A stretch of 64,000 bases of DNA. Origin: an uncultured Sphingomonadaceae bacterium. GTDB taxonomy: Bacteria > Pseudomonadota > Alphaproteobacteria > Sphingomonadales > Sphingomonadaceae. A program made the translations under genes and the position numbers. Position 1 is the stretch's first letter. Every line of letters starts with the position of its first letter. The DNA lies in contig CANLUL010000002.1 in assembly GCA_947494305.1 (NCBI GenBank), positions 62,001 to 126,000 on the forward strand, written 5' to 3'. Under the pieces are notes generated by a model. The model worked only from the letters and a program-made list of their open reading frames with translations. It did not search any database and was not told the DNA's origin. This document shows positions 1,295 to 4,346 of the stretch, piece after piece.

Positions 1295-2701
1295 CTAAAT
1301 ATGAATAGGCTTGCCCTGCACACCCATAGCAGCCTCTTTAATCGCCTCACTATGCGTGGGATGCGCGTGACAGGTATAGGCGATATCTTCAGATGTCGCG
1401 CCAAATTCCATTGCCTGAACGACCTGCGCAATCATCGTACCGGCGAGTGATGAAATGATATGCGCGCCAAGCACACGATCGGTTTTCGCATCGGCAATGA
1501 TCTTTACATAACCATCTGTATCCCGATTGGTTTTGGCGCGGCTGTTTCCGGCAAAGGGAAACTTGCCGACTTTATAGTCGATACCGCTTTCCTTCACCTC
1601 TTCTTCGGTCTTGCCGATATTGGCGATCTCGGGATGGGTATAGACAACACCGGGGATCAGGTCGTGGTTCACGATACCTTGTTGCCCGGCAATAAATTCT
1701 GCCGCGGCAACGCCTTCATCTTCGGCTTTGTGCGCGAGCATTGGACCAGGTGTTACATCACCAATCGCATAAACACCGGGAACATTGGTTTGGAAATCAT
1801 GACCAACTTCGATTTGACCGCGATCATTGGCGGTGATGCCAGCCTTGTCGAGCGCCAGACCATCGGTATTGGGTTTGCGTCCAATAGCGACCAGCACAGC
1901 ATCAGCCTCAATAGTCGAAGCATCGCCACCTTTGGCTGGCTCGACAGTGAGTGTCGCTTTTTTGCCTTTGACTGTGCAGCCAGTAACCTTGGTTGATGCT
2001 TGAATTTTGAAGCCTTGCTTCTTGAAAATACGCGCGCTGTCTTTGCGAACATCGCCGTCCATGCCCGGCAGGATTTTGTCGAGAAATTCCACGACCGTGA
2101 CTTCTGCGCCCAGACGCCGCCAGACGCTTCCCAGTTCCAACCCGATCACACCGCCGCCGATCACGACCATGTGCTTCGGCACTTTCGGCAGTTCAAGCGC
2201 GCCGGTGCTATCCACCACGATATGCTTGCTGTTGTCGATATCAACACCGGGCAATGGCGTAACCGACGAACCAGTCGCGATGATGATGTTCTTCGCAGTG
2301 ACCGTTTTGTCGCCCACTTTGACGGTGTTCGCGCTTTCAAAAGAGCCATGTCCTTTGAGCCAATCGACCTTGTTCTTCTTGAACAGAAATTCAATCCCGC
2401 CGGTGAGTTCACCCACCGCCTTGGTCTTCTCCGCCATCATCTGCTTCAGATCGAGCTTTGCCCCGGTTAGCTTGACGCCGAATTTTTCCAGCGCGCCCGA
2501 ATGTGCTTCTTCATAGATTTCTGAAGCATGAAGCAGAGCCTTGGACGGGATACAACCCACATTGAGGCAGGTGCCTCCCAGTGTCTCACGACTCTCTGCA
2601 CAGGCGGTTTTTAGGCCCAGCTGTGCGGCACGAATAGCCGCGACATAACCGCCCGGACCGGAGCCGATTACCAAAACATCATAGTCAAAATTGTCGGTCA
2701 T
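1295..2701 (-). CDS. lpd: Dihydrolipoyl dehydrogenase (E3)
   Basis: The E3 subunit of 2-oxo acid dehydrogenase complexes; it reoxidises dihydrolipoyl groups and reduces NAD+. It is 468 residues, as usual. It shows the FAD-binding GSGPGGYVAA motif (res ~13-22), the redox disulfide GGTCLNVGC (Cys45/Cys50), the NAD site VIGGGVIGLELGSV, the second FAD motif YAIGDV and the catalytic HAHPTHSE near the C-terminus (His447, Glu452). The ATG follows AGAGG by a few bases. It lies downstream of sucA and sucB, so it is most likely the E3 of 2-oxoglutarate dehydrogenase, although a GIY-YIG gene and two hairpin-forming repeats lie between sucB and this gene and may alter its expression. Confidence 0.97.
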   Translation of the reverse strand: MTDNFDYDVLVIGSGPGGYVAAIRAAQLGLKTACAESRETLGGTCLNVGCIPSKALLHASEIYEEAHSGALEKFGVKLTGAKLDLKQMMAEKTKAVGELTGGIEFLFKKNKVDWLKGHGSFESANTVKVGDKTVTAKNIIIATGSSVTPLPGVDIDNSKHIVVDSTGALELPKVPKHMVVIGGGVIGLELGSVWRRLGAEVTVVEFLDKILPGMDGDVRKDSARIFKKQGFKIQASTKVTGCTVKGKKATLTVEPAKGGDASTIEADAVLVAIGRKPNTDGLALDKAGITANDRGQIEVGHDFQTNVPGVYAIGDVTPGPMLAHKAEDEGVAAAEFIAGQQGIVNHDLIPGVVYTHPEIANIGKTEEEVKESGIDYKVGKFPFAGNSRAKTNRDTDGYVKIIADAKTDRVLGAHIISSLAGTMIAQVVQAMEFGATSEDIAYTCHAHPTHSEAIKEAAMGVQGKPIHI

Positions 2702-2722: not shown

Positions 2723-2752
2723 ATGTGCTCCGGGCGAAGACCCGGAGCCCTG
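2723..2752 (+). repeat. Left 30-bp arm of a perfect inverted repeat around the GIY-YIG gene
   Basis: These 30 bases are the exact reverse complement of 3086-3115. The arm contains its own 8-bp stem (GCTCCGGG / CCCGGAGC, 2727-2734 and 2741-2748) with a six-base loop CGAAGA. It lies between the GIY-YIG stop and the lpd start, about 20 bases upstream of the lpd ATG. Confidence 0.95.
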
Positions 2753-2771
2753 CGGTCCAAGCGCAATATTT

Positions 2772-3065
2772 CTAAAATAATGTATCAAACAAGTCTTCCC
2801 ACTCCGGGTTGTCCCACTCAATCAACTCAATCTTCCAATCCCGGTGCCACTTTTTCATTTGGCGTTCCTTGTTGCGAGCATCCTGAATATCGTCAAATGC
2901 CTCATACCAAACCAGCGATTTGCATCCATGTTCCTTGGAATGCCCCTCAATCAAACCGTTGCGATGTTCATAAGTTCGCTTCGGCAAGTCGCTGGTTACT
3001 CCCAGATAGGTTTTGCCCCGTCGGCGGTTAGCCATCAGATAGACGAAACCGGGTTTTTGTTGCAT
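2772..3065 (-). CDS. Small GIY-YIG family endonuclease
   Basis: A 97-residue stand-alone GIY-YIG domain of the UvrC-N/YhbQ-like type. Key family positions are present: Tyr9 (FVYLM), Tyr20 in the YLG variant of YIG, Arg30 (SDLPKRTYEH) and the metal-binding Glu67 in the NKERQMKKW stretch, followed by the usual WKIELIEWDNPEW tail. Such domains make nicks or double-strand cuts in DNA; the target is unknown. The ATG follows AGAAGG. The gene lies on the operon strand between sucB and lpd and is closely flanked on both sides by 30-bp inverted repeats, which suggests it came in as a unit rather than serving the dehydrogenase complex. Confidence 0.9.
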   Translation of the reverse strand: MQQKPGFVYLMANRRRGKTYLGVTSDLPKRTYEHRNGLIEGHSKEHGCKSLVWYEAFDDIQDARNKERQMKKWHRDWKIELIEWDNPEWEDLFDTLF

Positions 3066-3085
3066 ATCCTTCTAGTTATTGCCTC

Positions 3086-3115
3086 CAGGGCTCCGGGTCT
3101 TCGCCCGGAGCACAT
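3086..3115 (+). repeat. Right 30-bp arm of the inverted repeat around the GIY-YIG gene
   Basis: Exact reverse complement of 2723-2752, starting four bases past the sucB stop. It holds the same 8-bp stem and would form a stable hairpin in the operon transcript right after sucB, without a following U-run, so it looks more REP-like than like an intrinsic terminator. Confidence 0.95.
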
Positions 3116-3119
3116 ATTT

Positions 3120-4346
3120 CTACAAATCAATCAAAAGCCGTGTCGGATCCTCAATCGCTTCCTTGATACGAACAAGGAAGGTCACAGCTTCGCGGCCATC
3201 AATCAAACGATGATCATAGCTGAGCGCCAGATACATCATCGGGCGTGCCTCAATGGACCCGTCGGGCATCACAACAGGACGCTGCTCAATCCGGTGCAAC
3301 CCGAGCACAGCACTCTGTGGTGGATTGATAATCGGCGTCGACATCAACGACCCGAAGACACCGCCATTGGAAATGGTGAAGGTACCGCCTTCCATATCAG
3401 CCATGGTCAGCGAGCCGTCTTTGGCGCGCTTGCCAAAATCGCCAATAGTATTTTCAACATCAGCAAAGCTCATCTGTTCGGCGTTGCGAATAACGGGAAC
3501 GACCAAGCCATTGGGAGCGCTTACAGCAACCGAGATATCGACATAGTCATGATAGACAATTTCATCGCCATCAATTTGCCCGTTAACCGAAGGCACGTCC
3601 TTCAGAGCCAGACAAGCAGCCTTGGCAAAGAAGCCCATGAAGCCAAGCTTTACGCCATGTTTCTTAGCGAACAGGTCTTTATATTTTTTGCGTGTTTCAA
3701 TAACAGCCGTCATGTCGACATCGTTGAATGTCGTCAGCAATGCGGCTGTGTCCTGTGCAGATTTGAGGCGTTTAGCGATGGTCTGACGCAGGCGTGTCAT
3801 GCGAACACGTTCTTCATTGCGGTTACCGCCAGCGGGTGCGGCTGCCTGTGCTTCCCCGCCTTTCGCTTCACCTTTTTCGGCGAGTGGGGATGACGTACTC
3901 GCTCCGGACTTCACAAATTTCTCAACATCATCCTTGGTAAGACGGCCGTCTTTACCGGTACCGGCAATCTGACTGGGATCAACACCATGTTCTAGCACCA
4001 GACGCCGCACCGCAGGAGATAATGTGATCGAAGACGCGGTATCATCTGCTGGTTCCGATTTCGCTTCCTTGGCAGCAGGAGCCGGGGCCGCCTTGGTCGC
4101 AGAACCACCACCAGCCTCAATCGTCGCAATCACGGCGCCAACCTCAACCGTATCACCCACCTCAACCTGAAGCGCGCCCATCGTGCCGGCCTCTGGTGCC
4201 GGGACTTCGAGTGCCACCTTGTCAGTTTCCAAACTCGCAATCGGTTCATCCATCGCCACTGCATCGCCAGGTTGCTTCAACCACTCGCCCAAAGTCGCCT
4301 CTGTAATGGACTCGCCGAGAACCGGAACTTTTACTTCTGTTGCCAT
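3120..4346 (-). CDS. sucB: Dihydrolipoyllysine-residue succinyltransferase (E2 of 2-oxoglutarate dehydrogenase)
   Basis: The core of the 2-oxoglutarate dehydrogenase complex; it passes the succinyl group from E1 to CoA. It is 408 residues, standard for SucB. Domains in order: one lipoyl domain (res 1-77; lipoyl Lys43 in ETDKVALEV), an Ala/Pro-rich linker, the peripheral subunit-binding domain (~109-145, [12 protein letters not shown] to GRLTKDDV), a second linker and the catalytic acyltransferase domain ending with [13 protein letters not shown] (His379, Asp383). A single lipoyl domain and the order sucA-sucB-lpd support SucB rather than the pyruvate dehydrogenase E2. The ATG lies 17 bases after the sucA stop. 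Confidence 0.97.

Follow-up and report, generated by a model that had tools for sequence, protein, structure and literature searches.

The palindromes nearest in kind to those discussed here are the CGTC REPs (repetitive extragenic palindromes), a large superfamily, found mostly in Alphaproteobacteria, that apparently has no dedicated transposase (Di Nocera 2013, PMC3733652). In the parts of that survey on which we draw, a CGTC REP has an unpaired CGTC or TGTC end (the tag), a stem of 8-9 bp almost always starting AT, a loop of 4-5 nucleotides (nt) and a CCA end, and the definition also admits CCTC as the unpaired end. Pairs of CGTC REPs are mostly HH, with the tags outside, and in the same parts of the survey no gene for a REP-associated tyrosine transposase (RAYT) is flanked by CGTC REPs. 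Here we analyse a unit in a 64,000-nt stretch of DNA from an uncultured Sphingomonadaceae bacterium (the window), in which a gene for a small GIY-YIG nuclease lies between two inverted REP-like palindromes, its arms, in the gap between the host genes sucB and lpd. Comparison of this unit with its relatives makes it probable that it represents an autonomous mobile form of the CGTC REPs, and that the nuclease is a dedicated CGTC REP enzyme, each nuclease clade serving its own class of palindrome.

The arms form a perfect 30-bp inverted repeat, which the repeat-finding tool extends to 41 nt at 88%, and each contains a hairpin with an 8-bp stem and a 6-nt loop. The one open reading frame with known relatives between them encodes the nuclease, of 97 amino acids (aa). 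The genes sucA, sucB and lpd all lie on the minus strand and the unit sits inside this operon. An earlier note on this DNA had described the arms as exact reverse complements, each with an 8-bp hairpin, around a single 97-residue gene, and re-reading the sequence agrees with it; it had placed the unit 4 nt after the sucB stop and about 20 nt before the start of lpd, and the distances measured are 4 and 21 nt. Its comparison with the layout of REP/RAYT systems, with GIY-YIG chemistry, also holds, as the gene stands between two inverted REP-like palindromes and its product matches PF01541.

Units of this kind are widespread. A scan of public genomes found 10 loci encoding relatives of the nuclease; five Sphingopyxis contigs have a unit at the same place between sucB and lpd with other arms (GCTCCTGCGAACGCAGGAGC and GTTCC variants), Sphingorhabdus sp. 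109 has one at another place, and a Caulobacterales bin has hairpins beside the nuclease gene. In a set of 60 related genomes, the window's own genome counted, 39 have a nuclease match, often several per genome. The 93 tblastn hits fall in 90 loci and give 89 distinct units, one locus (L008) being left out as the same record as L027; some matches stronger than 1e-10 were left out as short or broken (G007:C67, G022:C1:1236815, G030, G031:C1:2980026 and G003:C2:1870104). The recurrence of matches and layout in relatives led us to reject the idea that the unit is a lone oddity of the window genome. With a perfect hairpin defined as a stem of at least 7 bp and a loop of 3-6 nt no more than 160 nt from the gene, 65 of the 89 units have one on both sides and 16 on one side; because of this recurrence, the gene-between-palindromes layout at the window is far beyond chance. 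Counted by flank, hairpins occur in 146/178, against 59/856 distal pieces taken 500-1460 nt away, 26/890 shuffled flanks and 2/92 flanks of other genes in the window; the figure for the distal pieces rejects a high genome-wide density of palindromes as the cause. A further control was provided by 20 weaker hits from genomes of the same set that belong to a different, sister GIY-YIG subfamily, which we read as UPF0213-like. Hairpins were found in 2 of its 40 flanks and never on both sides; this control and the occurrence of the layout at many sites lead us to reject plain intrinsic terminators.

For searches of wider breadth we used a 25-row nuclease profile, which matched 57 of 192 Alphaproteobacteria (own genome counted) and 81 of 299 genomes of the phylum. 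In a class sample drawn from the 56 matching genomes other than the window's own, all 29 loci have a hairpin within 200 nt, 17 of them on both sides and 12 on one. Of 26 non-alphaproteobacterial loci, drawn from 28 matching genomes (G323 and G325 left out), 7 have hairpins on both sides and 9 on one; the corresponding numbers are 5 and 6 among 20 further alphaproteobacterial loci, 12 taken as supplied and 8 picked for their multiple copies. A Flavivirga contig (Bacteroidota) has a homologue with CCCACGAAAGTGGG- and CCCGTTTTCACGGG-type hairpins alongside, which hints at spread beyond Pseudomonadota. At G057:C5 we noted a tandem duplicate of a unit (L067 and L043), with identical match scores and 578 bp apart.

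A recurrent frame underlies many of the different stems: (C/T)GTC at the outward end, then a stem that is about 8-9 bp long and frequently begins with AT, a short loop, and CC(A/T) at the inward end. This frame is how CGTC REPs are defined in the 2013 survey (PMC3733652). The commonest letters are G, T and C at positions -3, -2 and -1, and C (160/194), C (158/194) and A (99/192) at +1 to +3, counts that are partly circular because the palindromes were oriented by their tags. A loose tag test is passed by 161 of 207 palindromes compared with 181 of 4140 shuffled ones. A relaxed tagged motif is present in 183/326 flanks, against 38/636 distal pieces, 15/326 shuffled flanks and 1/40 flanks of the sister subfamily, and the CGTC-type end of the nearest such motif faces outward in 135 cases and inward in 48. 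When a REP is defined strictly across the family as a [CT]GTC end, a stem and a C[CT][ACT] end, the class sample has a strict CGTC tag upstream in 19/29 loci and downstream in 18/29, and at least one strict CGTC REP is found in 15/26 non-alphaproteobacterial units and 6/20 of the further alphaproteobacterial ones. Many units, not all, fit the strict CGTC REP definition.

The class of palindrome goes with the clade of nuclease. Between genomes, palindrome identity rises with nuclease identity (r=0.415, 2497 pairs). A permutation within genomes was based on the 72 units that have both a hairpin and a known genome, after removal of 165 syntenic pairs; the remaining between-genome pairs give r=0.220 (n=2332), a value that none of 2000 shuffles of paralogues within genomes attained (maximum 0.210). 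On a maximum-likelihood nuclease tree of 88 rows the palindrome classes require 23 changes, compared with a mean of 58.3 for shuffled labels (0/200 as low); the tree is built on few columns and has many weak forks, and near-copies add to the clustering. Sixteen window-class rows form one group, a 17th label (L013) being a chance match of the class pattern, and the five rows of class G also form one group. Class H shows no clustering, and class B requires 10 changes for 17 rows. One unit, at the sucB-lpd junction of G012, has arms with two different stems, TGCGAAAGCA and GGGCGAAGACCC, which suggests exchange of a single arm between REPs. Genome comparison shows that the palindromes flank the gene, that they have a usual orientation and that they are specific in class.

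Palindromes of these classes are also dispersed away from the gene. The window-class pattern occurs in 27/60 genomes, namely 26 of the 32 of the genus and one with a non-palindromic hit, with up to 23 hits per genome (self-symmetric copies count twice) and 0-2 per strand for reversed-pattern controls. The C-class pattern occurs in 36/60 genomes, the B-class in 25/60 and the D-class in 23/60, all with reversed-pattern controls of 0, and REP pattern counts reach 113 per genome. In the C-class listing, close pairs number nine in G032, one of them the unit itself, and eight in G022, all with tags outside. We then compared, across the 60 genomes, the presence of at least two REPs beyond those at units in genomes with and without a nuclease flanked by palindromes of the same class. 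The numbers are 18/18 with against 17/42 without for class C, 6/6 against 14/54 for D, 6/8 against 17/52 for A and 6/16 against 6/44 for B; outside the genus they are 5/5 against 0/23 for C, 2/2 against 3/26 for D and 5/8 against 3/20 for B. The tracking of enzyme and REP is mixed, clear for C and D and weak for A and B, with many REP-rich genomes in which no cognate was found. The class patterns miss variants: G013 and G016, with TGTTCC arms that come near those of class A, were scored as having no A-flanked unit.

This pattern bears on another reading, in which the nuclease gene is a parasite of the CGTC REPs that homes into REP doublets, the REPs themselves being spread by something else. 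GIY-YIG enzymes are classical homing nucleases, some REP-rich genomes (G044 and others) have no nuclease that was found, and gene-less doublets or remnants stand at the sucB-lpd junction in 25 of 30 congeners. Against this, the pairing of palindrome and nuclease by class holds on the tree as well as inside genomes, REPs of classes C and D go with the presence of their cognate unit, and the parts of the 2013 survey used here associate no transposase with CGTC REPs (PMC3733652). We regard this reading as unlikely.

Since the window's own genome has no second copy of the arm, the case for mobility is argued from relatives. A search for the arm, as proposed in the earlier note, succeeded in relatives, where arm-type palindromes are dispersed without the nuclease gene, and failed in the own genome (3.35 Mb in 11 contigs), where a DNA search returned the unit and its two arms only and a pattern scan matched at the two arm places only. 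One paralogue in this genome, L015 (G000:C1:1053679-1053945), is boxed by CATTGCGAG...CAATCCAG palindromes, a repeat pattern with 11 copies in the genome; for a second, L016, the tool finds no inverted repeat and a decayed C-class palindrome lies upstream. The window copy looks isolated, without dispersed progeny in its own genome.

Seven pairs of units from relatives were compared in detail, and in two of them the likeness runs roughly between the CGTC ends. In G037, L044 and L071 lie at unrelated sites and are 90% identical over 420 bp, with likeness that reaches at most some 30 nt beyond the CGTC ends; L081 (G013) and L077 (G006) show the same pattern over 485 bp. In the pair L085/L088 the alignment begins exactly at CGTC and reaches only into the gene, two pairs are alike in the gene alone, with arms that differ, and two are syntenic. 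Outside the seven, L236 (G297) can be aligned with L238, L239 and L240 (G393) along 513-514 bp; the alignments begin at CTTCGTC and stop at GACGAAG. From these alignments, some relatives have copies of the whole unit at unrelated sites, with likeness that ends at or near the CGTC ends. The earlier proposal of a minimal mobile unit gains from these copies, and lacks a second copy in the genome for which it was made. We also observed that L235-L240 (G297 and G393) are multi-copy elements of about 513 bp with CTTCGTC ends, imperfect palindromes of about 60 nt and a nuclease of the same family, and they are good candidates for active copies.

Several observations weigh against the reading of the unit as an autonomous CGTC REP with its own enzyme. 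The window arm does not fit the strict definition of a CGTC REP, having ATGT in place of a CGTC, TGTC or CCTC end, a stem that has the usual 8 bp and starts GC, a 6-nt loop and a CCT end; the inward CCA occurs in several relatives of its clade. No perfect hairpin is found on either side of 8/89 units, 10/26 non-alphaproteobacterial units and 9/20 further alphaproteobacterial ones. By eye, a class with imperfect stems (TCATTGCGAG...GCAATCCAG) accounts for five of the eight, and another of them, L092, fits no defined palindrome class. We re-read by eye 28 loci picked because hairpins were missing: several have palindromes that are longer and imperfect but end in the same way (CGTCATTCTAGGG...CCCTAGAATCCA, for instance), and at a few (for example L224 and L231) nothing clear was seen. 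Two pairs of REPs in G053 have their tags inside. Genomes with at least five REPs and no cognate-flanked nuclease found number 10 for class A, 12 for C and 11 for D, many of the counter-examples lying within the genus, and the association for class B is weak (Fisher 0.051 over 60 genomes), Fisher values not being independent evidence because the genomes share ancestry. G044 has 46 B-class REPs and no nuclease match at E 1e-3; here the REPs can have outlived the enzyme, or another enzyme can serve them, and its congener G050 has 68 B-class copies and one unit. Five of the seven pairs compared above are syntenic or only partly aligned. Among the three G393 copies the shared sequence measures 581-743 bp and runs past the CGTC ends; some of their surroundings are therefore also copied or alike.

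At the sucB-lpd junction, genomes of the same genus have different contents. Junctions were classed by eye, 30 of the 32 in the genus (G001 and G004 left out) and, outside it, 20 of the 27 with a sucB match; the coordinates of the window unit are given in Table 1. Among the 30, the full unit is present in four (G000, G012, G027 and G031), a gene-less doublet of the window class in two (G005 and G014), a C-class doublet or remnant in 23 and another palindrome in one (G018). Outside the genus two of 20 junctions have a palindrome of REP kind (G032 and G038) and 18 have none; G050, whose junction is outside the set read by eye, has by its coordinates a B-class doublet just after sucB. Because the contents differ by genome, the site has been repeatedly occupied, by different classes. 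A unit fixed at one place in all relatives, with arms nowhere else, was the situation that the earlier note had named as contrary to its view; four of 30 congeneric junctions with the unit, and arm-type palindromes dispersed in 26 of 32 genomes of the genus, are a different picture. As a whole that note is supported in part, and it contained neither the likeness of the arms to CGTC REPs nor the generality of the pairing.

Table 1. Position of the unit, its parts and the adjoining host genes in the window
Feature	Position	Strand	Remarks
Whole unit (REP-like arm, nuclease gene, REP-like arm)	2723..3115	-	393 bp; putatively mobile
Arm 5' of nuclease gene	3086..3115	-	Outward end ATGT; hairpin 3090-3111, GCTCCGGG-CGAAGA-CCCGGAGC; inward end CCTG; CGTC-REP-like
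Arm 3' of nuclease gene	2723..2752	+	Exact reverse complement of 3086-3115; hairpin 2727-2748; inward CCTG 2749-2752
GIY-YIG nuclease gene, 97 aa	2772..3065	-	Open reading frame and PF01541 match
sucB, host gene, upstream in transcription	3120..4346	-	
lpd, host gene, downstream in transcription	1295..2701	-	

The position of the unit could also mean that the hairpins serve the sucAB-lpd operon in transcription or mRNA stability, the nuclease being an ordinary host gene. A long closed stem is predicted for the transcript of the unit, at -154.5 kcal/mol (z -6.2), and palindromes or their remnants fill the operon gap in all 30 congeneric junctions read by eye. This account is nevertheless highly improbable: the gene-palindrome layout occurs at many unrelated places, the class of palindrome varies at this one junction, 18 of 20 junctions outside the genus have no REP of such a kind, and the sister subfamily lacks the layout. 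An effect of the hairpins on lpd is possible, and a local effect of this sort could coexist with mobility.

The protein itself is a clear member of its superfamily. It matches the GIY-YIG model PF01541 with an E-value of 2.3e-13 (50.7 bits against a cut-off of 22.6), and no NCBIfam model reaches its cut-off for the 97-aa protein. R29, H33 and E66 are invariant in an alignment of 25 sequences, with Y8 and Y19 nearly so, and in the family alignments Y8, G16, Y19, G21, R29, H33, E54 and E66 are invariant or nearly so; the catalytic roles of the conserved Y, Y, R, H and E positions we take to be those of the GIY-YIG superfamily. An AlphaFold2 model (pLDDT 94.5, pTM 0.85) has a single Foldseek match below 0.001, to UPF0213 protein BH0048 (E 6.4e-4), followed by Slx1 (0.018) and UvrC domains (0.19 and weaker). 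The nearest solved relatives by sequence are likewise of UPF0213 type (1e-9; PDB 1zg2, which is also the top fold match, and 1ywl), with weak matches to an SLX1 homologue and UvrC at 0.02-0.03. Slx1 is a branched-DNA nuclease according to the titles of its structure entries, an action that would suit a cruciform substrate for the 97-aa nuclease. In 13 of 15 hand-picked pairs of nuclease genes, aligned pairwise, the ratio of non-synonymous to synonymous substitution rates (dN/dS) is 0.07-0.19, the other two being one pair at 0.93 with a dS of 0.033 and one that is saturated; judged by these ratios, the nuclease genes are under strong constraint. Some homologues contain in-frame stops, as decaying copies would.

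The unit would then consist of two inverted REP-type palindromes and a small GIY-YIG nuclease gene, and the gene-less doublets and scattered single palindromes would be its non-autonomous products or remnants. The nuclease may read an extruded hairpin or cruciform together with the unpaired end, and may cut near the boundary between CGTC and the stem. Since a GIY-YIG enzyme works by hydrolysis of DNA and is unlikely to join strands unaided, the likeliest route would be a cut at a REP that host repair then fills with a copy of a unit or doublet, in a homing-like manner; use of an excised copy would be less likely. Homing-like spread between REPs would account for the way in which palindrome classes replace one another at the sucB-lpd junction.

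Strand joining is not known for GIY-YIG enzymes acting alone, which also favours a role for another enzyme, with a tyrosine (RAYT-type) or other transposase acting in trans to move REPs and units and the nuclease carried as cargo. REP units elsewhere have been proposed to be driven by RAYT, in the portion of that study consulted (PMC2817692). The absence of CGTC-flanked RAYT genes from the 2013 survey, to the extent given above, speaks against such a helper, and the strong constraint on the nuclease and its match to palindrome class would be odd for cargo. We consider this distinctly improbable. A wider proposal follows the view of the nuclease as a dedicated REP enzyme, and we make it only tentatively, as nearly but not quite an even chance: these units may be transposable elements of a new class. 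In place of a transposase they would have a single GIY-YIG nuclease of some 100 residues, which would cut at CGTC REP hairpins and leave host repair to copy units or their gene-less doublets. The nuclease may have given rise to the proteobacterial CGTC repeats, with dRS3 of Neisseria and RPE-4/6 of Rickettsia as possible members.

Among the papers listed by full-text searches of an open-licence PMC library, which leaves bioRxiv outside and includes few subscription journals, none connects GIY-YIG proteins with REPs in its title or the opening of its abstract; a report elsewhere may exist. In the passages available to us, RayT and a GIY-YIG endonuclease appear only as separate rows of a gene table (PMC9465073), a single GIY-YIG nuclease is mentioned as a casposon gene (PMC4046053), and RepRanger 2025 (PMC12306157) contains neither transposase, nuclease nor RAYT, CGTC occurring once, in the title of a reference. 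Here a small single-domain enzyme is genomically tied to CGTC REPs, class by class, which makes the question of a dedicated enzyme testable in vitro with short DNA hairpins. If the proposal is true, GIY-YIG chemistry would join that of the enzymes known to drive bacterial mobile DNA.

Among known proteins the UPF0213-type GIY-YIG proteins are nearest by sequence and fold, and the sister subfamily, putatively UPF0213-like, has the few hairpins counted above. Like the free-standing GIY-YIG homing endonucleases, the unit would be a selfish gene with a GIY-YIG nuclease as its sole product and a possible spread by cutting and repair; unlike them, it is bounded by its own palindromes, is intergenic and is present in several copies and classes in some genomes. 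The REP/RAYT systems, or REPtrons, as described in the part of the work we used (Nunvar 2010, PMC2817692), share with it a gene flanked by two inverted REPs, an enzyme and REP that evolve together and gene-less REP doublets that are dispersed. They differ in having an HUH tyrosine transposase and GTAG repeats, in place of the 97-aa GIY-YIG protein and CGTC-type repeats. With the CGTC REPs the units share the end, the stem, the CCA end and the HH pairs, all of which recur in many of them. The parts of the survey cited associate no transposase with these repeats (PMC3733652), whereas here many units of one nuclease family carry such palindromes, of which the window arm is a variant.
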